Of a stretch of DNA of 64,000 nucleotides, positions 25,555 to 40,165 are shown piece by piece (within the stretch, counting starts at the first letter, position 1; every line of letters starts with the position of its first letter). The stretch is from Pyrobaculum oguniense TE7. Lineage in GTDB: Archaea > Thermoproteota > Thermoprotei > Thermoproteales > Thermoproteaceae. The stretch spans positions 1,831,233 through 1,895,232 of the forward strand of contig CP003316.1 in the NCBI GenBank assembly GCA_000247545.1, read 5' to 3'. The position numbers and the translations under genes are program-made. Under the pieces are notes generated by a model. The model searched no databases, was not told the DNA's origin, and saw only the letters and a program-made list of their open reading frames with translations.

Positions 25555-25830
25555 AAAACTGGCGGCTTTCCGAACTCACCCCCTCTTTTTCCTCTTTGGC
25601 CATTGCGTCAGCAACATTCTGACCAACCCCACAGCGCTTGTGCAAAGGCCGTATGGCAAGGAGTAGCAGGAAGCTCTGCCGCCTGCCTACGGCGCCTCCC
25701 ATGCGCGTTGTTCAAAAGTTGTATCGATGTGTTTATTCAAAATTGGAAGTCCGAACCTACGGGTTAAAGGCTTGCCGCTTTGTTTTTACTTCCTTTGTGT
25801 CTGAAAACTTTCAACTGCCGTATGGAGAGC
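25555..25830 (+). pseudogene. Decayed tnpB tail with its 3' module
   Basis: 25555-25622 encodes RLSELTPSFSSLAIASATF plus stop, which is the C-terminus of TnpB (RFSELTPSFSSLAIALAAF at the intact copy). The following bases keep weak similarity to the conserved 3' module (GCCGCCTGCCTACGGCGC and two TTCAAAA-type motifs) up to about 25830. The rest of the gene is gone. It is fused directly behind the PaREP2b gene. Confidence 0.7.
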
Positions 25831-25903: not shown

Positions 25904-26104
25904 ATGCAGGTCTTCGCGCCGGAGCTTCCGCCTCGCGCCCTGCACCTGTGTGCCAGAGTCGCTGGATGCGGCTCTGGAAAAACACAACGATGGTTGTCTC
26001 AGTATATTCAAACGGTTAACCCCTTTCTTGGGCATGGCCGAGCGCCGTCTTCCGCCGTCAACTTCAAACCGTGGTCAATACCTCTAGCAACAACGCCGGC
26101 CTGA
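25904..26104 (+). pseudogene. Possible fragment of an ATPase or helicase-like gene
   Basis: A 66-residue frame contains VAGCGSGKTQRW, which resembles motif I of SF2 helicases (AxxGxGKT). Nothing else in it is recognisable, and the frame runs into palindromic repeat copy 5. It is at best a broken remnant. The motif could also be chance. Confidence 0.2.
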
Positions 26105-26224
26105 CTTCCGATCCTGACAGCCAAAATTCGTGTGTCAGGCTGTCTGTCAGGATGCTGAATTCAGGATGCTGACTGTCCGCCTGACCGACGTTTTCGGCCG
26201 TCAGGTGGACGTGTCAGGTCGGCG
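26094..26224 (-). repeat. Cloverleaf palindromic repeat, copy 5 (GAATTC-core subfamily)
   Basis: Reverse orientation. The core reads CAGGATGCTG, AATT, CAGGATGCTG, so the inner CTGAATTCAG palindrome is kept. The third arm (CAGCCAAAATTCGTGTGTC) is shared with copy 2 only, which defines a second subfamily. Confidence 0.8.
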
Positions 26225-26326
26225 TTTTGCTATGTATATTGCGGCGAGCTTGGCGAGGGCTGGCCTCCGGAGGCCTGTGTGGGCGGCGGCGTACCGGTCG
26301 CCGTCTTTAACCACGTCGTAGCCGTG
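26201..26326 (-). pseudogene. C-terminal fragment of an unknown gene
   Basis: The minus-strand frame reads HGYDVVKDGDRYAAAHTGLR, then RPALAKLAAIYIAK, before entering the repeat. Its upstream part has been replaced by the GC-rich RNA element at 26326. The codon pattern looks like real protein, but I do not recognise it. Confidence 0.3.
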
Positions 26327-26535
26327 CGCCCCCTTTCTACTCTCCGGGCGCCCCGGGGGGCACGGGGTCTGCGCGGGCGCTGTGGCCCGCGCAGAGGGGC
26401 CGCGCCCGGAGGGTTGCAAACCCCCTCGGCCGGGTGCTTCCGCCGACGGCGGATTTCCCCGGCCTTAGGCCCGTGCTGTAGGGCCGCCCCGCCCTGCCCG
26501 AGGCGGGGTGGGGGGCACAAAGAGACTTCATGTCT
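26326..26535 (-). ncRNA. GC-rich structured RNA candidate next to tnpB, copy 1
   Basis: About 200 bases homologous to 39612-39806. On the minus strand it starts with the hairpin AGAGAC-ATGAA-GTCTCT. It then has CCCCGCC/GGGCGGGG, CGGCCC/GGGCCT, TCCGCC-GTC-GGCGGA, GAGGG/CCCTC and a long TCTGCGCGGGC/GCCCGCGCAGA stem. The whole is closed by GCCCCC at one end and GGGGGC at the other. Two stems differ from the other copy but still pair. A TTAAATA box (26550-26557) lies about 24 bases before the first hairpin. It may be a tnpB guide (omega) RNA, an element end or a separate ncRNA. Confidence 0.55.
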
Positions 26536-26549
26536 CTACTTTGACCGGT

Positions 26550-26557
26550 ATTTAACA
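26550..26557 (-). promoter_or_regulatory. Promoter box A of GC-rich RNA copy 1
   Basis: GTTAAATA on the minus strand, within the block AATCAATGTTAAATAC that is identical in copy 2. Confidence 0.5.
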
Positions 26558-26567
26558 TTGATTAACG

Positions 26568-26657
26568 GTCGAGGAATTAAAGTGCATTAGCCTTATATTA
26601 CGCTATCGGCTAGAGCAACTCGAACAGAGTTGCCAAACAATTCGCCCAACGCTCTGA
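26568..26657 (+). pseudogene. Truncated copy of the small gene at 39419-39577
   Basis: Reads VEELKCISLILRYRLEQLEQ, then SCQTIRPTL and stop. This matches the last 29 residues of the small protein at 39419-39577 (VEELTYIVLRLRHKLEQIER). The N-terminal 23 residues and the start are missing, and the frame is closed upstream by TGA. Confidence 0.6.
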
Positions 26658-26863
26658 CCCTTTTTTCCGTCCTCGAACAAGAAACCCAAGAGGCAATGTT
26701 TCAAGCTCAGAAAAACGCCGAAGAGATGTGGCAAAACTCCAACTTTGAATCAACACGCTGTGACGGCTCCGACTTTGAACAACGCGCCTGGGGAAGCGCC
26801 GTAGGCAGGCGGCTGAGCTTGCCACACGGCGCCGCGGCTTTTACACAGGCGTTGCGAGGTTGA
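26600..26863 (-). mobile_element. tnpB 3' module (copy 1), candidate right end or omega-RNA source
   Basis: Directly follows the tnpB stop and is conserved with 39210-39430 and with 1-130. Hallmarks are CCTGCCTACGG, two TTCAAAGTYGGAG-type motifs and GACGGAAAAAAGGGTCAGAGCGTT. In IS200/IS605-type elements the guide RNA is made from this position. No HUH transposase gene (tnpA) is present, so this is a tnpB-only element. On the opposite strand the module is partly open (NSNFES...GSDFEQRAWG), so a small antisense protein cannot be excluded. Confidence 0.6.
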
Positions 26864-28000
26864 TCAGAACGCCGCTAACGCAATGGCCAAAGAGGAAAAA
26901 GAGGGGGTGAGCTCGGAAAACCTCTTCGCCGTCCACATCAGCGGCACCTCGTCTCTCGGCGCCTCGAAGCCGCACTTGGGGCACCTCACCCTCCTATTCG
27001 GCAACTCCTCCATCTTGGCCTCGCAACGGGGACAAATCGTGCTGTAGAGTCGCGCTTCGCGGTACGGCACGCCGTACCACTCCGCCAATTGTTTTATTCT
27101 CTTCTTGAGCCGCCCAACGTCGAGGTAGATCTTCTTTGAGGGGGCGTAGCGAGATTGCTTGATCTCCCTCAGCGATTCGTCCTTCGGCGCGTCCACTACA
27201 ATTAACGCTTTGTATTGCCTGGCTAACCTCACGATTTTCTTCGCCGCCTCGTCTGCAAATTCTCGTAACAGACGCCGTAATCTACTTTCAGCGGCCACCG
27301 CCTGCCGGCAATATTCGCCCTTTTTCGCGCATAACGAGTCCAACTTGCTAATCTCCTTCTGAAGCCTTCCGATTTTCGACAAGTGCGGCCTCTCTGTGCC
27401 AGAAGCTAAGATTTTGTCCTTCTCCACAACTCCCCACACAACGCCGTTGTGGAGGCCGTTTAAATCGACCGCGAGGACGCGTCTAACATCAATTGGTTCA
27501 ACATCTCTGGCAAAGGTAAGTGCCACGTTAAACGTTACAATGTTACTACGTTTCACACGACCGACCCACGCCATTGCCAACACCGGCTTGCCCCCTTCTT
27601 CAACTCGCTCTTTAATCCACTTGATGCTACTCTTCTTGAGCTTCAGCACGATGGTTCCGCCGCCCCACTTCCTAATCCTAACCTCTCCCTTTGACAAGTC
27701 TATAAAGACGCCGCAGCCCACATCCTTCTCGTTGTTGATGCGTAATTGTATGTTAAACGGCAACGGCACATTCCACTTGTCTTTCTTAAGACCGTTGGTG
27801 GGGATAAGCTTGAGAACATATTTGAGCTTCATGGCAAAGTACTTCAGCGGGTTTTGCTCTGGCATGGGCGCCTTGAAGCCCGATTTGTACCACTCCGTTG
27901 CCCATTCGCGGAATTGTTGTTGTATCTTGATGAACATCTCCAATTGCTCCGGCGGAATTTCCTCCGTTTTGCGTCTTATTAACAAAGTTCTGTACTTCAT
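26864..28000 (-). CDS. tnpB: TnpB-type RNA-guided nuclease homologue (IS605 OrfB family)
   Basis: 378 residues from the ATG at 28000. A TTG eight codons earlier is also conserved in the second copy. RuvC-I is VLAVDLNGLHNGV. The RuvC-II position reads LIVVDAPKDESLREI, with Asp where Glu is usual. A four-cysteine zinc ribbon, CPRC...CPKC, precedes the RuvC-III Asp in APRDEVPLMW, where the usual NAA is missing. It is about 80% identical by eye to the copy at 38067. TnpB proteins cut DNA guided by RNA from the element's right end and help the element persist. The changed motifs leave activity uncertain. Confidence 0.85.
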   Translation of the reverse strand: MKYRTLLIRRKTEEIPPEQLEMFIKIQQQFREWATEWYKSGFKAPMPEQNPLKYFAMKLKYVLKLIPTNGLKKDKWNVPLPFNIQLRINNEKDVGCGVFIDLSKGEVRIRKWGGGTIVLKLKKSSIKWIKERVEEGGKPVLAMAWVGRVKRSNIVTFNVALTFARDVEPIDVRRVLAVDLNGLHNGVVWGVVEKDKILASGTERPHLSKIGRLQKEISKLDSLCAKKGEYCRQAVAAESRLRRLLREFADEAAKKIVRLARQYKALIVVDAPKDESLREIKQSRYAPSKKIYLDVGRLKKRIKQLAEWYGVPYREARLYSTICPRCEAKMEELPNRRVRCPKCGFEAPRDEVPLMWTAKRFSELTPSFSSLAIALAAF

Positions 28001-28023
28001 GTCTCTGTTTGCGTAAATACACA

Positions 28024-28104
28024 ATTGAAAAATTGACGCCAGTTCTAACGACTAAGCTCGCATACGCCATCAAGGCGATACTCGAGCTCAACTCAATCCT
28101 CTAG
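28024..28104 (+). pseudogene. 3' end of a gene cut off at the tnpB element's left edge
   Basis: The plus-strand frame reads IEKLTPVLTTKLAYAIKAIL, then ELNSIL and stop. It begins exactly where tnpB-copy homology (CAATTGTGTATTT) ends. It looks like the natural C-terminus of a helical protein interrupted by the element. I do not recognise the parent gene. Confidence 0.4.
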
Positions 28105-28133
28105 TTCAACGTCAAAAAGAAGAAGAGAGAAAC

Positions 28134-28379
28134 ATGAAGTGGATAGAAACAACAAAAACAAAGGTAGAAACCATATTGAAGAAACTAGAAAAAGCATGGG
28201 GAAAAATAACGTGGCACATCGAGAGAACCAAGTATAAATTGTTTGGTTTGCCTATCACAGAAATACGGGCAAGTGTTTTGATAAACTGTCATTGGAAAAG
28301 AGCTCTTGTTGGTTATTGTGATCCTGACGAGGAGACTGCGCGAATTATTGAGTTTTTGCGCGAGTACTACCGTCTCTAA
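28134..28379 (+). CDS. Small basic protein, unknown
   Basis: 81 residues (MKWIETTKTKVETILKKLEK; LPITEIRASVLINCHWKRAL; DEETARIIEFLREYYRL). It has a basic helical N-terminus, a short central strand and a C-terminal helix. It is AT-rich relative to the surroundings. It could have been cotranscribed with the interrupted gene upstream. A C/T-rich terminator follows at 28380. No family is recognised. Confidence 0.5.
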   Translation: MKWIETTKTKVETILKKLEKAWGKITWHIERTKYKLFGLPITEIRASVLINCHWKRALVGYCDPDEETARIIEFLREYYRL

Positions 28380-28454
28380 CCCCCTTTTTTCCCCGCAGAG
28401 CCGCTTTTACGGTCGCACATCACAATTGTTTTGTATATGTGTAAAGGAGATGTT

Positions 28455-28585
28455 CGCTTACCTGACAGATTAGCCTGACAGTTCTTTTCCATCAGTCAGG
28501 CTGTCAGTCAGGATCCTGGGCCCAGGATCCTGACAATCCGCCTGACCGGTGAAAAAAAGAGTCAGGTGGACGTGTCAGGTCGGCG
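28455..28585 (-). repeat. Cloverleaf palindromic repeat, copy 6
   Basis: Reverse orientation, with the perfect GGGCCC core. The third arm is AGCCTGAC...GTCAGGCT, eight paired bases, with the loop TGATGGAAAAGAACT on one strand. Its right edge touches the stop codon of the surface-protein cluster at 28586. Confidence 0.9.
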
Positions 28586-28939
28586 TCAGTCTCGGCTGGG
28601 CTCGTAGAACATGAGCAACTGGGCGCCTAGCAACACCACATAAAAAGGCACGGCGTCTGGCCTGAGGCTTAGGGACAAGGCCCCGAGCATGGCGGCTCCC
28701 CCAGCCGCGGTGGAGACCAGGGATAGCGAGGAGCCGAGGGCGTATGCCAAGAGGGCCACGTCCTGGGGCGGCTCCACGGCCAGGAAGGCGAGCACTGCGG
28801 GGAGGCCCCTCGCGAGCTCCTTCAAGGGCTCCTCCTCAGACAGGGATGCAATTGCGATAATGGCGAGAGCATAAAAGGCGGAGTCGGGGAAGGCCAGGGA
28901 AAAAAGGACGGGCGCCGGGAGGAGCAAGAGGTGCCTCAC
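28586..28939 (-). CDS. Small polytopic membrane protein
   Basis: 117 residues with about four hydrophobic helices (LLLLPAPVLFSLAF; FYALAIIAIASL; VALLAYALGSSLSLV; VPFYVVLLGAQLLMFY). It overlaps the upstream 688-residue gene by four bases and ends exactly at repeat copy 6. It is the last gene of the surface cluster and perhaps a membrane partner of those proteins. Confidence 0.65.
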   Translation of the reverse strand: MRHLLLLPAPVLFSLAFPDSAFYALAIIAIASLSEEEPLKELARGLPAVLAFLAVEPPQDVALLAYALGSSLSLVSTAAGGAAMLGALSLSLRPDAVPFYVVLLGAQLLMFYEPSRD

Positions 28940-31002
28940 CGCCTCTTAAGCCAGAGGGCGGCCGCCGCGGCGACTACAGCCACCGAGGCCACCGCCGCAA
29001 CCGCCAAAGCGTCCAGCTGGTACACAGCCACGTAGACGCCCGGCGCCGCCACCACGTCGCTGGGAGACCACTGGGCGAACTTCCAGAAGAGGTTGTGCCT
29101 ATCGCGATCCGGCGGGGGCAAAACGTAGCCCTCCGGAAGCCACCTCTCCTCCCGCCCCCACGGGTACTGCAACACGGCGAGATACTCCCTGGACACCCTC
29201 GCCTTTATTTCAACAGGCCTCTCTACCTTGTCGGGGAGCTCCCACCCGTTGAAGTAAATCCTGGTCTGCCCGTCGTCGTAGAGCTTAGCCGGCGCCTTCG
29301 GCTCAGGGGGCTTGGCCCCTTCGTCGACCCACGCCGTATAGGTGAAGTTAGGAGCGGTGTAGTTCACCAAATACTGCCTCTTGTAAAGCGCGATGTAGAC
29401 CCCCGGCGCAACAACGCGCCTCGCCTCCCTAGACCCGTCGCCCCAGCGCAGAAACGCCAGCCTAGTCCCGTTGCCGAAGTCCACCGCCTCGTCCGCGTAT
29501 ATAACCACGGAGGCGCCCGGCCTCAGCCATAGCTCAGTCAAGTTGTGCTGGCCGCGGGTGTACGCCTCTGCGAGGAGGAGGCGGTGCTCCTCAAACGACA
29601 CTTCGACATACGCCGGGAGCCCGGCGTATGTAAAGCCCTCCACAGGCGCCATGGGGAGGCCGCGGCTGTCGAAAGCCGATACGCCCTTGACAACCCTCTT
29701 CACCCCGTTATCCGTAATCTCGAGCGGGATTTCGAGGCGGTAGAGCGGGATCACCCTCAAGGCGCCTTCCACGTCCACGGTGATTGTGGCTATTGGGGGC
29801 TGCCTCGCGCCGCCCACCAGCCACCCGGCGAGCACCGCCTTGATCCTGCCGACGTTGCTCCCCACCTCTGCTTCTGCCGGCGCGGCGTATGCGGTGGGGC
29901 CGGCGGCGAGGGCTGGGCCCCTGGCTGGGGGCACCACTTCGACCCGGTAGAGCCTTCTGTACTTGACGAGGCGGCCGTCGAACTGCTCAACAACGCAGGC
30001 GGAGTCCGTCAAGTTGTAGGGCATGGGGGCGGGCTCCTCCCCCCTCGGCACGTAGACCACGGCCCTCCCAGTCACGTTGTACTCCGCGGCGCCGGCCTTG
30101 ACAAGGCCGTAGGGACAACCAACTACTTCCACCTCCCGTTGCGTAAACGAGTAGACGGAGACGCCTGAGTCGTCTTGCACGGCGAGGGTGAAGCCCCGGA
30201 AGTCAAGGGCGAGCGACCTGGGCATGTTGGCCGGGATTGTGGCCACCAGTTGACCCCCGCGGTAGAGCTCCACCCTGTCTGCGAAGCCGATTGCCAGGAC
30301 GTCCCCGTCTCCCGAGACAGCAAGAGCGTATACTGGCTCTCTGACCGGGATTACGCGGGCGCCCCAGTACACCGCGCCCTCGGCCGCAAACGCGAGGACG
30401 CAGTTTTGCGAAACGGCGGCGGGCGGGCTCAGCCAGAGCATCTCGCCGATGCCCACATACTCCCTCCCGTCTACTATCAAGTACGGCTTATCCCGCTTAG
30501 CGACTGCCACTACGTGGTTGCAGCGGAGGGGGTGCTCTACGTAGCCCGGCCTCCAGACGCCGTACCTTAGCGCCCCGCCGTCGTAGACCAGCGATATTAC
30601 GGGCGCCCCCACATTCCTCTCGCTAACTACCCGCCCGCTCTGCACCTCTACGATGCGGCCGTCCATGGCGCCCACCGCCACCTTGTTGCAGTCGGTGGCG
30701 ATGGCGGAGGCGTTTATCTTCAAGACGGCAGACCAAAGCGCTACGCCCCTTACGTACAGGGACACGCGCGTTCCCGCCCATGTGCCGTTGGACAGCTGAT
30801 GTGCTACAGCCAGACAGGAGCCCATTGGATCCGTGGCTGTGAGGGCGCTATGCGCCTCCACGCTCCAAAGCCTCTGCCCGAGGCCGTTCATTGCGCCGAA
30901 CTCGTCCAGCGTGGAGTAGTACACCACGTCTCCGCCCTCGGAGACGTAGACGGCGGCGAGCGCCAGCGCCGCCAGCGCCAGTATGTATATTCCCCTACGC
31001 AT
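28936..31002 (-). CDS. Large membrane-anchored extracellular protein with beta-propeller-like repeats
   Basis: 688 residues. There is an N-terminal signal or anchor (YILALAALALAAVYV), a long extracellular part and a C-terminal helix followed by LKRR, so the C-terminus is cytoplasmic. Residues ~60-300 show repeated short beta units ending GDGDVLAIGFADRVELYRGG, like a propeller. The C-terminal ~250 residues contain DFGNGTRLAFLRWGDGSREA, a repeat also seen in the 806-residue neighbour. Many NxT/S sequons are present. It probably forms part of the cell envelope. The precise role is unknown. Confidence 0.7.
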   Translation of the reverse strand: MRRGIYILALAALALAAVYVSEGGDVVYYSTLDEFGAMNGLGQRLWSVEAHSALTATDPMGSCLAVAHQLSNGTWAGTRVSLYVRGVALWSAVLKINASAIATDCNKVAVGAMDGRIVEVQSGRVVSERNVGAPVISLVYDGGALRYGVWRPGYVEHPLRCNHVVAVAKRDKPYLIVDGREYVGIGEMLWLSPPAAVSQNCVLAFAAEGAVYWGARVIPVREPVYALAVSGDGDVLAIGFADRVELYRGGQLVATIPANMPRSLALDFRGFTLAVQDDSGVSVYSFTQREVEVVGCPYGLVKAGAAEYNVTGRAVVYVPRGEEPAPMPYNLTDSACVVEQFDGRLVKYRRLYRVEVVPPARGPALAAGPTAYAAPAEAEVGSNVGRIKAVLAGWLVGGARQPPIATITVDVEGALRVIPLYRLEIPLEITDNGVKRVVKGVSAFDSRGLPMAPVEGFTYAGLPAYVEVSFEEHRLLLAEAYTRGQHNLTELWLRPGASVVIYADEAVDFGNGTRLAFLRWGDGSREARRVVAPGVYIALYKRQYLVNYTAPNFTYTAWVDEGAKPPEPKAPAKLYDDGQTRIYFNGWELPDKVERPVEIKARVSREYLAVLQYPWGREERWLPEGYVLPPPDRDRHNLFWKFAQWSPSDVVAAPGVYVAVYQLDALAVAAVASVAVVAAAAALWLKRR

Positions 31003-31035
31003 GTACGGGAAAAAAGCTGGGGAGGATTTTGAAAG

Positions 31036-32433
31036 CTACGAAAACGCGTAGCGGGTAGAGTTTGTGACAACCTGCGGCGTCTCGGGCGGCGGGAGGACGG
31101 AGGTTGCCAGAGCCGCGCCGAGAGAGACCATGCTGGGGACGCCCACGACGAAGAACTTAGATCTGGCGTCAGAGCTGTATCTAACGTCTACATGAGACGG
31201 CACATACTTCGCGACGGCCACCATCGGGACGTTGTACGCCCAGTAGCCCGTCCTCCTGGTTTCATTACTTGTAAAGCTGAAAGACACAGCGCCGAGGGCT
31301 TCGGGATGCGTCTGGGCCACCGTTTTAATAGCCCTTGCCGCCATTGACCTTTCCTCCGGAGTGAGCTGGTCTAGCAGTATGGCCTCTATAAGGGTATTTC
31401 CGACAACTTCGACAATTTGGTTGTCCTTCATCTTGATCGCCCCAAATTTAGTATCTATGGGGTCGTCCGTCTCCGTGGCGAGGATTTCGTAGCCGGACGT
31501 GCCGTTCCGCTCGTAGTAAATTAACGTGGTCTTGTATCTGCCTATTATGTTGCCGCTTCCATCCTTCACTACGATGTACAGCTGGAAAACGCCGGAGGCG
31601 TTGGCTTTTACGTAGTCCGTCGCCACGCTGTACTGTACGGTACGGTGACGTTCACACGTGCCTAAATACACCGATTTGCCGTCTACCACAGCGCTGACTT
31701 CCAGCCACTCGCTGGAGTAGGGGTTTCCATAATACTCGACAACGACTCTGACGTCCACGTCCTTGGCGCCGAAGAAGTTCGTGACAGCCGCCGTGATTGG
31801 CCTAGCCACCGTGATAATAAAGGTTCCTGTAAATCCGCCGCTTGTCCTCACCAGCCTGAGCTCCCCGCCGCATGCAGTGCCCGTGCACAACAACGTGTCC
31901 GGCTCAAGGGCTTTGGCGTACACCTCGGCGGTTAAGCCACTGCATGCTAGGTAGAGGCCCAGCGGGACGCCGGCCACATCGGCGTACCCGTCCATGGCGT
32001 TGCGAACCTCCGCGAACTGCACCGCGGTGGGGTCGCGGAAGACCTTGAGCTCCCGCTCCGGCGCGTTCAGAGGCTCTGAGCACCTCACCTGGCCGGCGAA
32101 CTTCTTCTGGAAGCCGTCGTACTGGACAAGCACCTCCACGAAGTCGCCGCATTTGACGTATACGCCAGTCCAGCCCTCAACCACGTCCCCAACGCTGACG
32201 AAAGACGCCGCGGAGCCGGCGTACCTCCCGTTTACGTATATGTGAGCCGCCCTCGGCGCGTAGCCGGCGTAGTCGAACACCCCCACCTCAATCCCCCTAG
32301 ACGTGTTCTTAAACGTCAAGTACGGCAGAGGCTCCCCGTAGGGCTTAACAGGCTGGAACAAGCCGCCTGCATACGCCAGAATCAGCACAGCCACCGCCGC
32401 CGCTGCCGCAAACACTATTACTTCCCTAAACAT
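31036..32433 (-). CDS. Signal-anchored extracellular protein, unknown
   Basis: 465 residues from the ATG at 32433 (MFREVIVFAAAAAVAVLILA), which begins with a clear anchor helix. The in-frame extension further up overlaps the neighbouring gene and is rejected. The rest is beta-rich (IEVGVFDYAGYAPRAAHIYV; YSVATDYVKANASGVFQLYI) and Cys-containing. It is co-directional with the other surface genes and shares their envelope-protein character, but has no GNGTR repeat. The family is not recognised. Confidence 0.65.
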   Translation of the reverse strand: MFREVIVFAAAAAVAVLILAYAGGLFQPVKPYGEPLPYLTFKNTSRGIEVGVFDYAGYAPRAAHIYVNGRYAGSAASFVSVGDVVEGWTGVYVKCGDFVEVLVQYDGFQKKFAGQVRCSEPLNAPERELKVFRDPTAVQFAEVRNAMDGYADVAGVPLGLYLACSGLTAEVYAKALEPDTLLCTGTACGGELRLVRTSGGFTGTFIITVARPITAAVTNFFGAKDVDVRVVVEYYGNPYSSEWLEVSAVVDGKSVYLGTCERHRTVQYSVATDYVKANASGVFQLYIVVKDGSGNIIGRYKTTLIYYERNGTSGYEILATETDDPIDTKFGAIKMKDNQIVEVVGNTLIEAILLDQLTPEERSMAARAIKTVAQTHPEALGAVSFSFTSNETRRTGYWAYNVPMVAVAKYVPSHVDVRYSSDARSKFFVVGVPSMVSLGAALATSVLPPPETPQVVTNSTRYAFS

Positions 32434-32480
32434 GGGAGAGACGGAGGGAAAAGAAACATTGAAAAAATACTTGATTTCGG

Positions 32481-34901
32481 CTACTTCTTCCTCCTCTTCA
32501 AAAGGAGGGCCGCCGCGGCGGCTGCCACGGCTACCAGCGCCAGGGTGTATGGGGATACTGGCCAGGCCGTTGCATTTAGCTGGCACGTCTTGTCGGTTTC
32601 CGCCGCGGCGTATACTCTGCCCGCTGGGTCGGCTGGGAAAGCCTTGCCGCAGAGCTCCACGGTCGCAGTGGGGTTGGGGAGTCCCAGGAAGTCTCTGAAC
32701 TCGCCTGCATACGCCGCGAGGTATCCCACGGTTACTGCCTTGGGCCTGTCCGCCTCTACATACGGCAGAAGCGGCTTGTAGGCCACGCCGCCGACGGCTG
32801 TCTCGTTCAGCCAGATCTTAGACCCCTCGTAGGCCCAGCCCCGCCACTCCTCCACTCCCCTCACCTCCACCCAGTACTGCCGCCTGTAGGACACCACAAC
32901 GTTCACCGGCTTGTCCACAACGACGGTGGCCGGCTGCGGATCCACAAGCCTAGTCCCGTTGCCGAAGTCCACCGCGTCTGGCAGCCTTATCACCGAGCCC
33001 GGCGCGTACCACCCCTCCGTCTTGTTGAACGGAGTAGCGACGGAGGCCCAGTAGTACTTCTCGCGGTAGGTGAAGTACAGCGCAGTCGGTCTGTCCACGT
33101 AGTAGCCCCTTGGCGGAGTCCCGTTGACCAGCAGGCCGGCGAACTTCGTCCCGTTGCCCGGCAGCCACGGGTCTGGGGCGGCCGGCTTAAACACGGCGCC
33201 TTTCTGAACCCAGGTGTGGTTAGAGCCCCAGGGGTAGTGCAGAGACGCCAGGTAGTACACCGCGTAGCCCGGCCTCAAGACGGCCGGCCTCTCGACGGCA
33301 ACCTCCGCCGGGTAGACCACTACGCGCGTCCCGTTGCCCAAGTCGGCGTCGGCTCCTGGGTAGCGGTATAAGGAGCCGCGCTCTGCCCACGCCTCGCTTG
33401 CGCCTAGGGGCGTCTCCACGACGACTCTGTAGTACACGGAGTAGTTGGCGGCGTAGACCCTCCCAGGCCTGTCAAACGCCACCTCAAGCGGCACCCCCCT
33501 CAGCAGTGTGCCGTTGCCCAGCAACACGTCGTCCGGCCTGTAGACGAGGCGGCTGCCCCTATCGCCCACGAGCTCCGCCGTCTTGTTGAACTCCCTTACC
33601 AACACGGCGTATTTAGTGCAGTAAAGCTCCGCCGGCCCCTTCACGAGGTAGCCCCTCCCCACCCTCTCCACTTCGCCCCTAGCCACCGCCTCCCCCACCT
33701 CACACGTGAAGTACAGGCCCCTTTGTACAGTTTTCACCTCGCCGTGCATAGTCGCGTTCACAAAGCCCATGTCAAGCACCACGGTGCTAGAAGTGGCGCC
33801 CGGCCCCACAGAGGCGGAGAAGCCGTCAAAAGAGACGCCGGCCTCTATGCCGGTAGTCCTGCTGGCGAATCCCATTAGAAGGCCGCTACCCCACAACATG
33901 TTTGTCACGTATCTGGGCACGGCCAGGGTGTCGTTGCCTATGAGAAGCCTAAACGTGCCGAGGTACCTCATAGGCCTCCCAGGCAATCTGTCTACGTCAA
34001 CAGCCGCAACGGCGGTGGTGGGGTTGTCGAGTAGCTCATACGGCCCTGTGTAGAGCCACGGCTCTTCGTTGCTGAACCTTGTCGTGTTCAGCGTGTAGAA
34101 TAGTTCTCCGTCTACGTGGAAGTAGACGGCGTTTTTGCCGGCGGCGGCGGTTATGTTCTTGGGCGGGGCGTCGCGCCTCGTGCACGCGGAGTACTCCGTG
34201 GGTATCTTCCACGTAAAGGCGTAGCTCCCCCAGTCGTGCCACCACCTCTGCCAGAAGACCCACCAGTTCATGCAAATCCGCCGGGTGCCGTTGCGGAGCA
34301 CCTCCCACGTGACAGACGCTATGATGACCTTAGAGGCGTTGTCGCCGGGGCAGGCGACGTAGTACGCCTCTTTAGGCGGCCTCCTCTCCTCGAGCCAATC
34401 CGTTATCCTCCGCTCCAGCCTCTTCAGACAGGCCAAGACAGGCCCCTCGCCCAGCTTCACCGCCACCTGCAAGCCGTACACCACCTTCGTCTTGTTTAGG
34501 TAGCCGCCGTAGATGTCATCTTTCAGAGCTCTCCCCCACTCAGTGAGGCTCCTCCCCCAGAAAATCCACTCGTTCCACCTAAACCAGTCGGTAGAGACGT
34601 TTGCGGGGATCTCGAAGAGGCCAACCGCCTTCTTGTACACGTACTCCACCGGCGTCCCGTCCGGCCTCCACGCAGAGGCAACAACCCCCGGCGTAGATCT
34701 CAACTGCGGCTCCACGCAACCGTGGTAGGCAGGCTTGCAATAATAAGCAAAGGTTTCATCTTTGAACACCTCGACGTAGTGTATGTAGGTGCTCTCCCGG
34801 TAGTCCAATATCACGTAGAGCTTCTTGTACGGGTAGAAGTAGGCGTACTGAACCGCCAGTGCCAGAGCCGCCACTAACAAGAGTGCCAGAGCCACCCTCA
34901 C
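32481..34901 (-). CDS. Large surface protein with tandem ~70-residue repeats and C-terminal anchor
   Basis: 806 residues. The N-terminal signal helix is ALALLLVAALALAVQYAYF and the C-terminal helix is followed by LLLKRRKK. Residues ~480-740 contain at least four degenerate repeats of the form YYxxVxTPxGxSExW...GSxxxxP...DxGNGTRxV..P...V..P, for example VVVETPLGASEAWAERGSLY and VATPFNKTEGWYAPGSVI. The upstream half has several Cys and many sequons. It resembles archaeal S-layer-associated or adhesion proteins. The repeat is shared with the 688-residue neighbour. Confidence 0.7.
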   Translation of the reverse strand: MRVALALLLVAALALAVQYAYFYPYKKLYVILDYRESTYIHYVEVFKDETFAYYCKPAYHGCVEPQLRSTPGVVASAWRPDGTPVEYVYKKAVGLFEIPANVSTDWFRWNEWIFWGRSLTEWGRALKDDIYGGYLNKTKVVYGLQVAVKLGEGPVLACLKRLERRITDWLEERRPPKEAYYVACPGDNASKVIIASVTWEVLRNGTRRICMNWWVFWQRWWHDWGSYAFTWKIPTEYSACTRRDAPPKNITAAAGKNAVYFHVDGELFYTLNTTRFSNEEPWLYTGPYELLDNPTTAVAAVDVDRLPGRPMRYLGTFRLLIGNDTLAVPRYVTNMLWGSGLLMGFASRTTGIEAGVSFDGFSASVGPGATSSTVVLDMGFVNATMHGEVKTVQRGLYFTCEVGEAVARGEVERVGRGYLVKGPAELYCTKYAVLVREFNKTAELVGDRGSRLVYRPDDVLLGNGTLLRGVPLEVAFDRPGRVYAANYSVYYRVVVETPLGASEAWAERGSLYRYPGADADLGNGTRVVVYPAEVAVERPAVLRPGYAVYYLASLHYPWGSNHTWVQKGAVFKPAAPDPWLPGNGTKFAGLLVNGTPPRGYYVDRPTALYFTYREKYYWASVATPFNKTEGWYAPGSVIRLPDAVDFGNGTRLVDPQPATVVVDKPVNVVVSYRRQYWVEVRGVEEWRGWAYEGSKIWLNETAVGGVAYKPLLPYVEADRPKAVTVGYLAAYAGEFRDFLGLPNPTATVELCGKAFPADPAGRVYAAAETDKTCQLNATAWPVSPYTLALVAVAAAAAALLLKRRKK

Positions 34902-34935
34902 GGGGAAAAACGAGATTGAATAAAAAAAAGAATTG

Positions 34936-37449
34936 TTAGTTTTGGGAACTTACGCAACCTACCTTTCCTGTGTTTTTGTCAGTATCGATATTCCGCTGTT
35001 GCATTGTACATGTCTTGCCTTGGTCGCTTATTACGTATATATTGCCTTCTGCTTTTACCGTGGTCCAGTACTCTTTGTATGTGTAGGTTACGTCGCTGCC
35101 GCATCCGAATTCGCGGACTTCGTACGTTATGTATATGTCCACGGTGTAGCCGCCGGGCACCTCTTTCCAGTTTCTGTGCTCGTGGTTTTTCGGTTTCATA
35201 ATTTTCGTTGGGACGCAGGCCTCGTCTGGGGCAGAGTAGGAGCCGCTGCCTACGTATGCGGTTGTGTAGCCGACTCCGTCCACCGCGTCGTAGCCCACCA
35301 GCTTGTCCCAGAGGTAGAGCCAGAGGACTGACGACGCCTGCACCTTGTAGAGGTAGTTGCCGGTGATGTGGTCGTAGCCGAGTTGTTGCGCTGTATAGCC
35401 TGCCTTGACGCGGAGGGTGTACTTGTACGAGGCTATGTCGGTGACCTTGTAGAGGTAGGGGAGGCGGACGTAGGCGCCGGTGTTGGTCTGCTTAGGCCGG
35501 ATGTAGCCGACGACGGTCTCCCCGACGCCTCTCGGGAGACCCCACATCTTGACCTCTGAGCCGTTCCACCAGACGTAGACGGGGACGTAGCTGGGGAAGA
35601 TAGGCATCTCCCACCGGTACGCTTTGCTGTCCCAATACAACCTGCCGCTGACCTCTCTAACCAGCTGGCCGTCTACGTACACCTTGATGGAGTAGGACGG
35701 CGGCTGGATGCAGAGCAAGCCGCAGCTCCGGCTGCCGAGGTTTACCTCCAGCCTGTAGGTAGCGACTGGCTGGCCGCCGCGGCGGCACTGCAGAGTCCAG
35801 TAGTGAGACTTGCCGTCGAGGGGCCAGTCGAAGCCGTCTTGGTAGCCGCTGGTTTGGATGTGGCAGTCCACATCGCCGGGGCCCGTCACCGGCGGGTAGC
35901 CGAAGTTGTTGTGGTAGATATTGCGTATTTCAAACGATGTGCCGAACGCGATCCTCACATTCTTTCTCTGTGGATTTAATATGTCGAAGTCCGCCACGGC
36001 TATCCAGAACTTGTCGTCGGCGTATAGGAGGGCGGCGCCTTGGGCGCCGGCGGTTATGTTCACCACGTTGCCGCCCGGCCTCTTGAGGACGGCCTCTTTT
36101 ACGTCCAGCGGATTTGCTGGCTCAGACCAGAAGACCTTTAAGCCGTCTGGCCGCCTCACGGCCCCTACTTCGAACACCTGCAACGGGCCGACCAGCTGGT
36201 AGCCCACGAGGGCGGAGCCGCTTCCGGCCTCTCTCAGCGCGACCGTCCCGTTGCCCAGGTTCGTGGCGTTGACTACGGAGCCTGTCATGTTAAACACGGC
36301 GCCTGGGTAGACGTAGAGGGTGACGGCTCTGTCCAGCTGGCCGTAGGGGATTGGGTCGGCCTTAAACACGTAGCGCGTCCTGAAGAGCTCCCTCCACGTC
36401 TTAAAGTAGATGTTGTAGCCCTCCACCCACCCGCTCCAGGAGGCGCCGAGGGGCATCAAGTGCTCTCCTTGGACGTAGCACTCCCCGTTGAAGTAGAGGC
36501 CGCCGTTTTTCTTGCAATAGCAGAGGCCGTCAGAGCATATGGTTCCCTCGTTGCCCGGAGGCCCTGTGTTGACCCAGTAGGGGAGGCGTACTCCGTCCGG
36601 CTGCACGTACGCCCTCACGCCGATGGGGCTCAGCACCTCGGCGCCGGAGGCGGGGCCGCGGTAGGACGGCACCACGTTGAGCCAGAGCTCCACCGCGCTT
36701 CCGTTGACCAGCGGGATGCCGTATACCCAGCGCCTCCCCACCGGGTAGTAGGTGACGTAGTTGAAGTCCACGGGGGCGAGCGAGTTCATGGACACTATCT
36801 TGGCCTCTTGGCCGGGGAGGAGGACGAACATCCTAGCCGCAGAGGCGGCGGAGTAGAGGTCGCCATACGCCGCGCCTATGGGCGGATCCACGGCGATTGT
36901 CACCGGCCTGTCCCAGATGTTGCGGACGTAGACGCCGTCTCCCTTAAAATAGGCAGTGATAACCGCCGTCTCGTTGAAGGCCACGTAGTCAAGGACATAG
37001 CTACCGTAGGCCACCATCATGGGGAGGAGCCAGTCCCCGTGTTTCTCCGTCTTCAAGCTGGCCTCCCTCTCCGGGCACACCGCCTTGAACGCCAGCACGC
37101 GGCTCGCCGAGCCCCTGCGCACTTCGTACGCCACGGTGGAGTTGCACCTAACAAGGAGAGGTTGGCCGGAGTAGTTGAGCCAGGCCTGCTTCTCGCGCTG
37201 GAGCCTCGCGCTGACTAAGTACTCGGCGCCGTCCACCGCCACGCGGCCTACCACCACGTCGGCGAAGGCGGCCTGCGCCCCCAGCCAGAAGTGGGTGTCG
37301 TTGTAGGGCCTCGCCAAGGGGTAGACGTAGGCCTCCCCCCAGTCCGCAACCTTCTGCGCGTCTTGGAAATGCCAAACCACAAGCCCGCCCACCGCTACCA
37401 TCAACGCCGCAATCAGCACCATTAACGGCAAGCTTATGGCCTCTTGCAT
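34936..37449 (-). CDS. Large pilin-like-anchored extracellular protein
   Basis: 837 residues from the ATG at 37449. MQEAISLPLMVLIAALMVAV looks like an archaeal N-terminal pilin-like or signal-anchor segment. A longer open frame would include palindromic repeat copy 7 and is rejected. The bulk is beta-rich with paired cysteines, for example GLLCIQPPSYSIKVYVDGQL and several CxxC-like groups. It has no C-terminal membrane helix, unlike its neighbours. It is the first gene of the five-gene surface cluster and probably a secreted or filament-associated protein. Confidence 0.65.
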   Translation of the reverse strand: MQEAISLPLMVLIAALMVAVGGLVVWHFQDAQKVADWGEAYVYPLARPYNDTHFWLGAQAAFADVVVGRVAVDGAEYLVSARLQREKQAWLNYSGQPLLVRCNSTVAYEVRRGSASRVLAFKAVCPEREASLKTEKHGDWLLPMMVAYGSYVLDYVAFNETAVITAYFKGDGVYVRNIWDRPVTIAVDPPIGAAYGDLYSAASAARMFVLLPGQEAKIVSMNSLAPVDFNYVTYYPVGRRWVYGIPLVNGSAVELWLNVVPSYRGPASGAEVLSPIGVRAYVQPDGVRLPYWVNTGPPGNEGTICSDGLCYCKKNGGLYFNGECYVQGEHLMPLGASWSGWVEGYNIYFKTWRELFRTRYVFKADPIPYGQLDRAVTLYVYPGAVFNMTGSVVNATNLGNGTVALREAGSGSALVGYQLVGPLQVFEVGAVRRPDGLKVFWSEPANPLDVKEAVLKRPGGNVVNITAGAQGAALLYADDKFWIAVADFDILNPQRKNVRIAFGTSFEIRNIYHNNFGYPPVTGPGDVDCHIQTSGYQDGFDWPLDGKSHYWTLQCRRGGQPVATYRLEVNLGSRSCGLLCIQPPSYSIKVYVDGQLVREVSGRLYWDSKAYRWEMPIFPSYVPVYVWWNGSEVKMWGLPRGVGETVVGYIRPKQTNTGAYVRLPYLYKVTDIASYKYTLRVKAGYTAQQLGYDHITGNYLYKVQASSVLWLYLWDKLVGYDAVDGVGYTTAYVGSGSYSAPDEACVPTKIMKPKNHEHRNWKEVPGGYTVDIYITYEVREFGCGSDVTYTYKEYWTTVKAEGNIYVISDQGKTCTMQQRNIDTDKNTGKVGCVSSQN

Positions 37450-37512
37450 GTCCACACACCCGGAGCAAAAAGCGTTGAATAACCTGGAAAAACAACAAAA
37501 GTAAAGAAGAGG

Positions 37513-37645
37513 CGCGCCGACCTGACACGTCCGCCTGACTCTTTTTTTCACCAGTCAGGCGGATTTTCAGGATCCTGGGCCCAGGATCCTGACCGACAAT
37601 AAGACTGACGAAATTTAGTTGTCAGGCTAGTCAGTCAGGTAAGCG
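37513..37645 (+). repeat. Cloverleaf palindromic repeat, copy 7
   Basis: Forward orientation, with the perfect GGGCCC core and a T-run loop in the first arm. It is inverted relative to copy 6, so the pair brackets the surface cluster. AACAACAAAAGTAAAGAAG lies just to its left, as it does beside copy 2. Confidence 0.9.
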
Positions 37646-37715
37646 AACCCCTTCTTGACATATTTTAACCCGGGGCGCCGCAACAATCATAGCTTCTACA
37701 TGCGTAGGAGTGGCT

Positions 37716-38009
37716 ATGATGTATGTTCAACCAATACGCTTCAGTCCAATCGGCGAGTACCTGCGCCTAGTCATAATGCAAAGGCTGGCGAGGGGCCCAG
37801 CGCCGGTGGAGGAGATAAATCGGCTGGCCAAAGAGGCTGTGGAGAAGGTAGGGATTAAGTACGACTGGCGGGTGTGGCCAGAGCTACTGAAACGGGAGGT
37901 GGTAGTGAAAGACGGCGTGGCGGAGCTGACTAAAGAAGGCAGGTGGATCTACGAACAGACGAGGGAGGAGGTGGCGGAGTACCTAAAACGCTTCCGGATA
38001 GAGCTGTAA
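37716..38009 (+). CDS. Small winged-helix-like protein
   Basis: 97 residues from the ATG at 37716; a GTG at 37710 is also possible. The pattern is MQRLARGPAPVEEINRLAKE, then WPELLKREVVVKDGVAELTK and GRWIYEQTREEV: helices followed by a short wing. This is what a small winged-helix DNA-binding protein looks like. A GGAG lies eight bases before the ATG. It sits between repeat copy 7 and the second tnpB. Confidence 0.5.
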   Translation: MMYVQPIRFSPIGEYLRLVIMQRLARGPAPVEEINRLAKEAVEKVGIKYDWRVWPELLKREVVVKDGVAELTKEGRWIYEQTREEVAEYLKRFRIEL

Positions 38010-38066
38010 TCCCCTCTTTTTTCTCCTACAGCGGCAATTCAATTGTGTATTTGCGCAAGCAGAGAC

Positions 38067-39209
38067 ATGAGGTACAGAACCTTGTTAATAAGGAGGAAGA
38101 TTGAAGAGATCCCACCGGATCAGTTACAACGTTTCATAGAGGTGCAGGAGGCGTTTAGAAGATGGGCAACGGAGTGGTGTCAAAGCGGCTTCAAGACACC
38201 ACTTCCGCAGCAAAACCCGCTAAGACAACTCGCTAGGTACCTGAAATTTGGCATGGCGGTTGTGAAGCACCATTGTCCAAAAGAGGAAGGGAAGATTTGG
38301 AACGTTCCGTTGATCTTTGATGTCCAGTTACGCGTCGACGGCGAAAGGGACATGAGCCGCGGCGTCTTTATAGACCTGACAAGAGGGGAGGTTAGGATTA
38401 GAAGGTTGTGCGAAACCATCGTATTGAAGCTCAAGAAGAGTAGCATCAAGTGGATTAAAGAGCGAATTGAAGAAGGGGGCAAACCCGTGTTGGCGATGGC
38501 GTGGGTCGGCCGCCCGCGCCGCTCAAACCTCGTGACGTTCAACGTAGCGTTAGTATTTGCGAGGGAGGTGGCGCCAATTGAAATGCGTCGCGTTCTCGTC
38601 GTCGACTTAAACGCCCTTCACAACGGCGTTGCTATCGCCACCATAGAGGGCGAGAGGATACTTCAGAGAGGCACGTTGAGACCCGATCTAAGGTTAATCG
38701 AGATGCTCCAAAAGGAGATAAGCCGTTTGGAGAGCTTGTGCGCCAAGAGGGGCGAGCCCTATTGTACGCAATTTGTTGCGGCCCAGAGCCGCCTGTACCG
38801 CCTGTTGCGAAAGTTCGAAGACGAGGCGGCGAAGAAAATCGTCAGGCTGGCCAGGCAATACAAAGCGTTAATTGTAGTGGACGCGCCGAAGGACGAGTCG
38901 CTGAGGGAGATCAAGCAATCTCGCTACGACCCCTCAAAGAAAATTTACCTCAACGTCGGTAGACTGAAGAAGAGGATAGAGCGACTTGCCGAGTGGTACG
39001 GCGTGCCGTATAGCGAAACGCGACTCTACAGCACGATTTGTCCCAGGTGTGGGTTCAAAATGAAGGAGTTGCCCGGCAGAAAGATGAGGTGTCCCAAATG
39101 CGGCTTCGAAGCACATCGCGATGAGGTGCCCTCACTGTGGGCGGCGAAGAGGTTTTCCGAACTCATCTCCTCTTTTTCTTCTTCGGCCATCGCGTTAGCG
39201 GTGTTCTAA
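38067..39209 (+). CDS. tnpB: TnpB-type RNA-guided nuclease homologue, second copy
   Basis: 380 residues from the ATG at 38067. The left border CAATTGTGTATTTGCGCAA matches the first copy. RuvC-I is VLVVDLNALHNGV. RuvC-II is again Asp-containing, LIVVDAPKDESLREI. The zinc ribbon is CPRC...CPKC, followed by AHRDEVPSLW. The same deviations as in copy 1 argue that they are family features, not random decay. A C-rich/T-rich tract ends the preceding gene. It is followed by the conserved 3' module, a convergent small gene and the GC-rich RNA candidate. Confidence 0.85.
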   Translation: MRYRTLLIRRKIEEIPPDQLQRFIEVQEAFRRWATEWCQSGFKTPLPQQNPLRQLARYLKFGMAVVKHHCPKEEGKIWNVPLIFDVQLRVDGERDMSRGVFIDLTRGEVRIRRLCETIVLKLKKSSIKWIKERIEEGGKPVLAMAWVGRPRRSNLVTFNVALVFAREVAPIEMRRVLVVDLNALHNGVAIATIEGERILQRGTLRPDLRLIEMLQKEISRLESLCAKRGEPYCTQFVAAQSRLYRLLRKFEDEAAKKIVRLARQYKALIVVDAPKDESLREIKQSRYDPSKKIYLNVGRLKKRIERLAEWYGVPYSETRLYSTICPRCGFKMKELPGRKMRCPKCGFEAHRDEVPSLWAAKRFSELISSFSSSAIALAVF

Positions 39210-39430
39210 TCAGCCTCGCAATATCTGTATTTACACAAAAGTTGTGGGCAAGAAACAGAACCACTTGCCTGCCTACGGTGCCTCCCCAGGCTTGTCGTTC
39301 AAAGTCGGAGCCGCCACAACATGATTATTCAAAGTTACAACTACGCCGTGCCTCCTCGGCGTCTTTCCGAGTTTGAAACGCTACCCCTCGGGTTCTTGTT
39401 CAAAGACGGAAAAAAGGGTCAGAGCGTTAG
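39210..39430 (+). mobile_element. tnpB 3' module (copy 2), candidate right end or omega-RNA source
   Basis: Conserved with 26600-26863 (reverse) and 1-130. It has GCCTGCCTACGGTGCCTCC, two TTCAAAGT motifs and GACGGAAAAAAGGGTCAGAG. The end of homology is not sharp here, because the following small gene and GC-rich RNA are also conserved between the two copies. The mobile unit may therefore extend to about 39806. Confidence 0.6.
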
Positions 39431-39577
39431 GCGACTAGTTTGACATTCACGTTCAATTTGCTCAAGTTTGTGGCGCAATCTCAGAACGATGTATGTCAAC
39501 TCCTCGACCAGCGCCGATATCATTAGGTCGCTGATCTCGGAAAGCTGTGCTACAAAGTAGCTAACGCCGCGGGTCAA
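39419..39577 (-). CDS. Small helical protein convergent with tnpB
   Basis: 52 residues from a TTG immediately after an in-frame TAG: LTRGVSYFVAQLSEISDLMI, SALVEELTYIVLRLRHKLEQ, IERECQTSRLTL. It is one long amphipathic helix that could form a coiled coil. It is preserved as protein between copies (VEELxxIxLxLRxxLEQxExxCQT), with changes mostly conservative, although copy 1 is truncated. It could be an accessory factor of the tnpB element. Too little is known to assign a role. Confidence 0.45.
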   Translation of the reverse strand: MTRGVSYFVAQLSEISDLMISALVEELTYIVLRLRHKLEQIERECQTSRLTL

Positions 39578-39586
39578 CTAATCAAT

Positions 39587-39594
39587 GTTAAATA
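39587..39594 (+). promoter_or_regulatory. Promoter box A of GC-rich RNA copy 2
   Basis: GTTAAATA, about 26 bases before the AGAC-ATGAA-GTCT hairpin. It is conserved in copy 1. Confidence 0.5.
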
Positions 39595-39611
39595 CTGGCC
39601 AAAGTAGAGAC

Positions 39612-39806
39612 ATGAAGTCTTTATACGCCCCCCACCCCGCCTCGGGCCGGGCGGGGCGGCCCTTAAGAACGGGCCGAAGGCCGGGGGTCGGGGCTAAGCC
39701 CCGGCCGAGGGGGTTTGTAACCCTCCGGGCGGGCCCCCGCTCCGGGAGCCGAACGGCGACCCGGAGCCCCGTGCCCCCCGGGACGCCCGGAGAGCAGAAA
39801 GGGGGC
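39612..39806 (+). ncRNA. GC-rich structured RNA candidate next to tnpB, copy 2
   Basis: Homologous to 26326-26535. Stems are CCCCGCC/GGGCGGGG, CGGCCC/GGGCCG, CGGGGC-TAA-GCCCCG, GAGGG/CCCTC and GCTCCGGG/CCCGGAGC within CCGGGCG/CGCCCGG, closed by GCCCCC and GGGGGC. The third and fifth stems have quite different bases in copy 1, yet both pair, which is strong evidence for an RNA (or DNA) fold under selection. The end GAGAGCAGAAAGGGGGC is nearly the same in both copies and marks the homology border, here joined to vapC. Confidence 0.6.
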
Positions 39807-39884
39807 AAAGAGGTCATCTATCACGCCGCTGCCGGCCTCCTCCACGTAGCGTTTTACCAACGCGCTTGTGTCGAGGTAGATCAC
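39807..39884 (-). pseudogene. Truncated vapC-type PIN toxin
   Basis: Encodes MIYLDTSALVKRYVEEAGSG, then VIDDLF, the usual start of a VapC PIN domain with its first catalytic Asp (YLDTSAL). After 26 residues the frame runs into the GC-rich RNA element, so the remaining acidic residues are lost. It overlaps the antitoxin gene by ATGA. The open frame continues to 39663, but only as translated structured-element sequence. Confidence 0.75.
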
Positions 39885-40165
39885 AGACGGCTCTCCCTCG
39901 CCCTCCTAAGCTCCTTGACCAACTCTGACGTGGGCGCCCCCAGCGAGGCTGGACGCTTGGCCTTGACCTCTTCCGGCGTGGTGATTCGACCCCCGCAGTC
40001 CACCCCCAGCTCTCTACAGAGCTCCTCCGCGAGCCCCTCTCCGTCAAGCAATGCGATGTAGTCATTGAACAGCTCGCTTATTGACGTCTTCAAGCCCGAC
40101 CTGCCCAACACCGCCCTCACCCTCCTCAAAGCCTCCTCCCTCACGGAGAGAGTCAACTTCTTCAC
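39881..40165 (-). CDS. VapB-type antitoxin
   Basis: 94 residues from a GTG. The N-terminal segment KLTLSVREEALRRVRAVLGR and ISELFNDYIALL fit a ribbon-helix-helix or AbrB-like antitoxin DNA-binding domain. The acidic and then basic C-terminus would wrap the toxin. A TTTATAAA box lies 23 bases before the GTG. Its toxin partner is truncated, so the antitoxin has probably lost its original job. Confidence 0.65.
   Translation of the reverse strand: MKKLTLSVREEALRRVRAVLGRSGLKTSISELFNDYIALLDGEGLAEELCRELGVDCGGRITTPEEVKAKRPASLGAPTSELVKELRRARESRL

Follow-up and report, generated by a model that had tools for sequence, protein, structure and literature searches.

In the insertion sequence ISDra2 (IS200/IS605 family), TnpB is described as working with an RNA that derives from the element's right end (right-end element RNA, reRNA, or omega RNA); the guide comes from the flanking DNA, and the transposon-associated motif (TAM) is the motif at which the element inserts (PMC8612924). 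Structured RNAs have also been described at the 3' side of archaeal tnpB genes of the IS200/IS605 type, namely the haloarchaeal sotRNAs or omega RNAs (RF02656 and RF02657), which overlap tnpB (PMC12558985), and downstream of the ~390-amino-acid TnpB of IS607 (the RAGATH-18 reRNA; PMC11061315). Here we describe a structured RNA that accompanies tnpB in the hyperthermophilic archaeon Pyrobaculum oguniense TE7. The window that we analyzed is 64,000 nucleotides of contig CP003316.1 (G000:C1:1831233-1895232, where G000 is this genome and other G numbers are related genomes). It contains two tnpB genes, which are 72% identical, and a GC-rich segment of ~200 nt lies behind each of them on the same strand (Table 1). 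We conclude that these segments very probably encode the omega RNA of this clade of TnpB, that is, the scaffold of its guide RNA, and that this RNA would be transcribed from a promoter of its own.

The two segments are homologous, as a first-pass annotation of the window had reported. They can be aligned from ATCAATGTTAAATA to GGAGAGyAGAAAGGGGGC and not beyond, so the common border described by that annotation is present. By BLASTN, the genome of P. oguniense contains 5 full and 5 partial copies of the RNA, and after the identical 3' end the copies have different flanks. The TTAAATA boxes of the window copies are also where they were said to be, and all 5 full copies carry TTAAATA or TTAAGTA at this position. 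The similarity between the two loci of the window includes the DNA upstream: it is continuous from tnpB into the spacer (BLASTN, 73% identity).

Both segments are predicted to form a multibranch fold, with folding z-scores of -5.53 (copy 1) and -4.18 (copy 2); each was better than all of 200 dinucleotide shuffles. Two stems that had been reported as replaced between the copies, with pairing kept while the sequence changes, are indeed replaced. We built a covariance model, R1, from 11 copies; it is pseudoknot-free and leaves out the start hairpin. That hairpin is only partly kept (33 of 44 lettered cells pair in the 11-row alignment). Among the relatives, the RNA has two subtypes, A and B, which have a common 3' half and different 5' halves. 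In the model's alignment of 18 type-A copies, 24 of the 60 pairs changed on both sides, which exceeds every shuffle (12.9 ± 2.2) and every structure slid along the alignment (8–12); with type B added (34 rows), 42 of 60 pairs changed on both sides. These alignments are fitted to the structure, so both counts are biased towards it. In type A, the variable hairpin changed on both sides in all of its 11 pairs, and the closing helix (5' GCCCCCC with 3' GGGGG) did so in 5 of its 6, although the 3' GGGGG has two candidate C-run partners. RNAalifold on 25 mixed 3' halves gave just 4 pairs, none of them changed on both sides, and because the variable hairpin looked misaligned in that alignment, we used the covariance-model alignments instead.

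The conserved ATG behind the box might instead be the start of a short leaderless protein. Open frames of 96–158 amino acids overlap the segments, and in both window copies the frame begins M-K-S-L-x-A-P-H-P-A-S-G-R-A-G (by eye). However, the frame is not kept among relatives: it stops at once in locus L090 of G004 (ATG GGC CTG TAG), it ends after ~32 codons in L020 (by eye), and L022 lacks the ATG. Also, covariation of the stems explains the conservation. We rejected this open reading frame, and the protein explanation is almost certainly wrong.

The 3' end of the RNA coincides with the border between the element and the host DNA. Copy 2 interrupts a vapC-like gene, and the DNA of the homolog in G006 aligns exactly to position 39806 and stops there. 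The plus strand of the vapC-like fragment is the guide-equivalent flank of this copy. The other half of the G006 homolog has no counterpart in the window. Elsewhere in the genomes, the solo copy in L004 (solo meaning that it lacks tnpB) abuts the end of a gene that is conserved in 7 relatives. We also considered the solo copy in L003, but we have no empty site for it, because relatives align only to the neighboring conserved gene (which is map-like by eye).

We searched with 20 right flanks (13 + 7) for other sites and followed up 13 loci; L093, L097, L099, L100, L101, the first copy in L211, and L215 were not among these 13. The two flanks are adjacent in an empty site in 8 loci and 0.2–1.1 kb apart in 4, and just the right flank was found for 1. 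Most of these comparisons are between G002 and G004, with ~91–97% identity in the matched flanks, and two insertions in G006 were compared to other species. Where the border is unambiguous (10 sites), the last letters of the RNA are a G-run and, as a rule, two further letters, chiefly CA or TA, that are absent from the target. The empty sites resemble CGGCG, then the border, then T: the counts across the 10 sites are C 9, G 7, G 8, C 7, G 8, and then T in 10 of 10. Overall, 39 of 50 letters match CGGCG, with the consensus being derived from these same 10 sites; 20,000 random draws matched at 14 letters on average and at no more than 28. L090, L211, and L216 were excluded from the count because their borders were aligned by eye and partly to fit; with them included, T is at +1 in 13 of 13. 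This geometry is TAM-like: the motif is followed by the sequence that a guide would match. The motif was seen for the insertions in G002, G004, and G006, and not for the window copies.

Because a conserved, folded RNA gene with a promoter-like box ends exactly at the border between element and host, this RNA most likely guides TnpB. As expected of an omega RNA, the end of the scaffold is the element border, with host DNA in the position of the guide, at the vapC-like gene, at the gene conserved in 7 relatives, and at the 10 empty sites. The annotation's proposal of a separately promoted omega RNA with its guide in the flank is also supported by the same-strand position behind tnpB, the unique host flanks, the recurring TATA-like box, the covariation, and the TAM-like motif in the empty sites of sister species. 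The right-end origin of the RNA, a guide from the flank, and a TAM equal to the target motif would all be as described for ISDra2, and the haloarchaeal sotRNAs and the RAGATH-18 reRNA are likewise described as structured RNAs at the 3' side of an archaeal tnpB or downstream of TnpB.

We envision a transcript that begins at, or close to, the conserved ATG that follows the TATA-like box. This transcript would comprise a GC-rich scaffold of ~200 nt that folds back on itself via the closing helix, would cross the element border, and would end in host DNA. The guides of known TnpBs are 16–20 nt, and the first ~16–20 nt of host sequence would be the guide. TnpB with this RNA bound would recognize the element-free allele when the TAM-like motif (CGGCG in the sister species) precedes the match to the guide, and by cutting the empty site, it would favor retention or spread of the element. 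Since the RNA appears to carry a promoter, TnpB that is made elsewhere in the genome could receive extra guides in trans from solo copies. The TAM and the guides are predictions that can be tested directly.

The arrangement of box and start recurs in more distant relatives. We examined 20 loci (19 from G003 and 1 from G009) out of 37 tnpB matches in these two genomes, where tnpB is ~43% identical. The box TTTTAACCTCGTAA, with at most 2 changes, is near the end of tnpB in 19 of the 20 loci, and in 16 of these 19 it ends on the stop codon. CATG lies behind the box in 17 of 20 loci (12–13 nt after the stop in 14 of the 17). In 11 of the 20 loci, a script located a 3' end made of a G-run (for example, AAGGGGGC or TAGGGGGAC) with unique flank after it. 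The alignment of these loci shows a GC-rich segment behind tnpB with a common 3' part, and G005 and G018 have a similar layout (by eye). From these layouts, it appears that a TATA-like box with an ATG-like start recurs in the genus. In the window lineage, the leader of the RNA, AGAGACATGAAGT, copies the leader of tnpB, AGAGACATGARGT, and similar pairs of leaders, each with their own sequence, are found in G006 (L093) and in the elements of G002 and G004. We read the RNA leader as a duplicated tnpB promoter. The more distant type of tnpB has expanded within one related species, G003, where it has 32 matches.

A covariance search of the Thermoproteales, which the first-pass annotation had proposed, gave 47 matches to R1 in 7 of the 45 genomes of the order: 12 in G000, 13 in G002, 7 each in G004 and G006, 4 in G017, 3 in G015, and 1 in G013. 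G000, G002, G004, and G006 also contain 10 full tnpB genes that are at least 50% identical (excluding a broken, partial tnpB of G006, at 2116048). In 7 of these 10 cases, the RNA is 222–399 nt behind the protein match and on the same strand, so the downstream position is seen in four genomes. In two more (L087 and L088), the RNA is at the other end of the element and points outward. Two of the 9 tnpB-linked RNA matches follow a tnpB remnant only; such remnants were sought in G000 alone, with a lenient threshold. With its filters off, R1 also has matches directly behind tnpB in L065 (G003, E = 2.2e-4) and L083 (G016, E = 1.4e-3). The annotation had stated that homologs with neither a link to tnpB nor conserved stems would refute it. 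Most copies are in fact solo, yet the solo copies keep the stems. Some tnpB-less copies are at the same site in different species, with shared flanks (L102 in G015 with L104 in G004, and L214 in G002 with L217 in G004), and one of these pairs spans genera, at 88% DNA identity. This suggests that they are inherited or transferred insertions. The exact 3'-end pattern of the RNA had no matches in collections of genome contigs and viral contigs, from which records near the window may be absent, so this has little bearing on the distribution. Similarly, searching the genome contigs with the TnpB alignment gave 28 pattern matches and no confirmed relative, in a collection that possibly lacks records near the window.

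TnpB of copy 2 is similar to ISDra2 TnpB (phmmer, E = 1.5e-5), and its predicted structure (predicted local distance difference test, pLDDT, of 71.4) matches Cas12f and TnpB structures, including complexes of TnpB with RNA (best E = 2e-12). In contrast to ISDra2, whose catalytic Glu278 aligns with Asp271 of the window TnpB, most of this clade has aspartate at the catalytic glutamate: among 31 aligned relatives there are 29 Asp, 1 Ser, and 1 Glu. (These 31 exclude L013, L072, and L084, where the residue is absent, and the duplicates L077–L079.) The other two aspartates are kept in nearly all of the relatives. A RuvC domain that has Asp instead of Glu is a natural test case for catalysis in the superfamily.

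Several observations weigh against our interpretation. Because Asp stands at the catalytic Glu, this TnpB clade may bind without cutting, and the RNA might then guide a repressor like TldR, a nuclease-dead TnpB, or another DNA-binding ribonucleoprotein. The E278A substitution is reported to inactivate ISDra2 TnpB (PMC8612924). On the other hand, the aspartate is kept rather than drifting, the other two aspartates are nearly always intact, and the copies are mobile and multi-copy instead of domesticated at one locus; a non-cutting TnpB seems unlikely to us. Both window TnpBs also score below the cutoff of NCBIfam's guided_TnpB model (47 bits for copy 1 and 43.7 for copy 2, versus 100). In having a separate TATA-like box and in lying 200–400 nt behind tnpB, the RNA of the window lineage differs from the overlapping omega RNAs that have been described and from the RNA of ISDra2. 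The scaffold has no kinship in Rfam: omega-like families do not match it (the best, sot2652, scores 14 bits versus a gathering score of 61, which separates it from the sotRNAs as they are described), and neither the window nor the related loci have a RAGATH-18 match at gathering scores. The covariation is weak without a structure-fitted alignment: when the 5 full copies from G000 were aligned plainly with MAFFT, RNAalifold gave 68 pairs, of which just 6 had changed on both sides, and the covariation term was unfavorable (+4.56). Copy 2 in the vapC-like gene lacks the T at +1.

Also weighing against the link to TnpB, for 38 of the 47 RNA copies, no tnpB match lies shortly upstream on the same strand, and three genomes with the RNA (G015, G017, and G013) gave no TnpB match at E = 1e-10. 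Conversely, behind one of the 10 full tnpB genes (L092 in G006), the place of the RNA is taken by another gene, which is PaREP1-like by eye and has a similar leader. Six genomes that carry tnpB had no R1 match at E = 0.001 in the scan of the order: G005 and G018, whose tnpB is 52–53% identical, and G003, G009, G012, and G016, whose tnpB is more distant. Once the filters were off, a match in L063, similar in score to those in L065 and L083, lay upstream of tnpB and on the other strand. Finally, the conservation of the box in G003 may reflect coding, because the box overlaps codons.

The insertions in G002 and G004 also allow us to ask how these elements move. Of their two ends, just the RNA end is constant, and the far end varies. 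Among eight clean cases, the length of the element ranges from 443 bp (L254) to 4065 bp (L255). Four of the eight have exact target duplications, of 10 bp (L105), 7 bp (L088), 8 bp (L087), and 11 bp (L254). In L255 the duplication is imperfect (13 bp, of which 10 match by eye), and the case of L090 is ambiguous. L091 shows no duplication, and in L086 8 bases of the target are missing. It seems that the inserted DNA starts from either outward RNA unit and stops anywhere. L086 has a whole RNA unit at one end and a truncated, inverted unit at the other. The insertion in L091 contains a fragment of TldD (Pfam, E = 8e-40).

Given these ends, the segment might be mainly an end of the element's DNA, serving as a terminal repeat for an undescribed integrase, with the hairpins forming cruciforms in DNA and any RNA being incidental. 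The unit can be at either end and inverted in G002 and G004 (at both ends in L086, and far from the 3' side of tnpB in L087 and L088), and the RNA end alone is constant at the insertions. There is also a palindromic mini-element of ~96 bp with the RNA 3' end at both of its ends (L023:2033-2128, or about G000:C1:1363632-1363727). However, a DNA end does not need a recurring TATA-like box with an ATG, a multibranch fold of ~200 nt with compensatory changes, or a one-sided position behind tnpB, as in G003. We think it improbable that the segment is mainly a DNA end, and this does not exclude an omega RNA, because omega RNAs are normally both an RNA and the right end. From the mini-element one could also view the family as miniature inverted-repeat transposable elements only; we rejected this, as most copies have one RNA end.

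The shape of these insertions is also reminiscent of non-LTR (long terminal repeat) retrotransposons. These move by target-primed reverse transcription; their copies share one constant 3' end, are truncated at the 5' end to varying degrees, have variable target duplications, and can capture host DNA. By analogy, a reverse transcriptase could prime at a nick between CGGCG and T and copy the RNA from its 3' end, which would account for the constant 3' end, the 5'-truncated copies of varied length in the eight clean cases, the exact duplications of varied size, and the capture of distal host DNA. But the reverse transcriptase family RVT_1 (PF00078) had no match in 18 genomes at E = 0.001, while controls were detected in 3 of 14. 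Moreover, the RNA is a TnpB-linked gene, the insertions include DNA upstream of the promoter of the RNA and may begin at either of the element's ends, L091 has no duplication, and L086 is missing target bases. Retrotransposition of this RNA is therefore very improbable.

Transposition as in IS605 has difficulties as well. Y1_Tnp (PF01797) was absent from the same 18 genomes at E = 0.001, with controls detected in 5 of 14, and no serine recombinase was found among seven open reading frames of the elements that were scanned with Pfam (no genome-wide search was made). Although the RNA has the omega-RNA features that could be tested, the elements of G002 and G004 have neither of the IS200/IS605 features that we tested, which are a Y1 TnpA and two fixed ends without target duplication. 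ISDra2 differs from them in these respects. Retrotransposition would have to proceed without a reverse transcriptase, and IS605 transposition without TnpA and without fixed ends.

A candidate for another nuclease is encoded upstream of tnpB in all 6 of the tnpB elements from G002 and G004 that we examined (L086–L091): an open reading frame with GIY-YIG-like motifs. Its predicted structure is poor (pLDDT 50.5); in Foldseek, no match reached E = 0.001, and the best eight were GIY-YIG domains of UvrC (E = 0.03–0.5). Pfam gave just E = 0.06, in one of four sequences, and a sequence search of PDB with the alignment gave nothing meaningful. We did not see this open reading frame in the loci of G000 or G006 that we examined. 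Our tentative suggestion, which we would not yet bet on, is that this is a transposon of TnpB and omega RNA whose integration needs neither TnpA nor reverse transcriptase. DNA of the omega RNA's 3' end would be joined to the target between CGGCG and T, and the far end would be wherever copying reached, which would yield truncated copies, captured host DNA, and duplications of ~7–11 bp. If the nucleases are the element's own TnpB and the GIY-YIG enzyme, then the guide RNA and the integrating end would be the same module. One-ended integration without TnpA, if true, would change the view of how TnpB elements move and of the way in which RNA-guided nucleases gained independence from transposases.

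This looks like a new family of omega RNAs from hyperthermophilic archaea, with its own promoter and often freed from tnpB. We found no description of the RNA or of the element among the titles and abstracts listed; most subscription journals are outside of this coverage, so this is not proof of novelty.

Table 1. Features of the two tnpB loci, in window coordinates.
Feature	Position	Strand	Remarks
RNA copy 1, structured, omega-RNA-like	26328-26537	minus	3' end at 26328; R1 204.4 bits, E = 9e-64 (seed member)
TATA-like box TTAAATA of RNA copy 1	26549-26555	minus	Ahead of conserved ATG at 26529-26531; read from the sequence
Host DNA flanking copy 1, predicted equivalent of the guide	26307-26326	minus	Copy-to-copy homology stops at the border; length inferred from known guides
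tnpB copy 1 (RuvC/TNB; Asp at catalytic Glu position)	26864-28000	minus	Pfam Cas12f1-like_TNB, E = 1.4e-8, above cutoff; frame open
tnpB copy 2	38067-39209	plus	Pfam TNB, E = 5.4e-10
Spacer from tnpB copy 2 to RNA copy 2	39210-39578	plus	Homologous to the copy-1 spacer up to 39509
TATA-like box TTAAATA of RNA copy 2	39588-39594	plus	24 nt ahead of ATG at 39612-39614; read from the sequence
RNA copy 2, structured, omega-RNA-like	39606-39806	plus	3' end at 39806; R1 175.6 bits, E = 1.4e-54 (seed member)
Interrupted vapC-like (PIN) gene, 5' part (named by eye)	39807-39893	minus	From translation

Besides the two copies in Table 1, the window has a third match to R1, at 182-322 on the minus strand; it is weak (30.1 bits) and is probably a decayed copy. 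A remnant of a tnpB 3' end and spacer lies at 25564-25747 (plus strand), in the opposite orientation to copy 1 and beside a PaRep2b gene (24406-25548). At gathering scores, Rfam matches in the window are limited to a Pyrobaculum sRNA elsewhere, at 44501-44562, and those in 8 related loci to Pyrobac-1, also away from the RNA. PaREP-like genes (named by eye) are also inside or beside the elements in L092 of G006, L090 (5242-5595), and L255 (4974-5576), and the elements may spread PaREP families. Lastly, palindromic CCTGAC/GTCAGG repeats are near both tnpB genes of the window (26080-26230, 28440-28500, and 37500-37640), and related TCAGG repeats flank tnpB in G002, G004, and G006 (both by eye).

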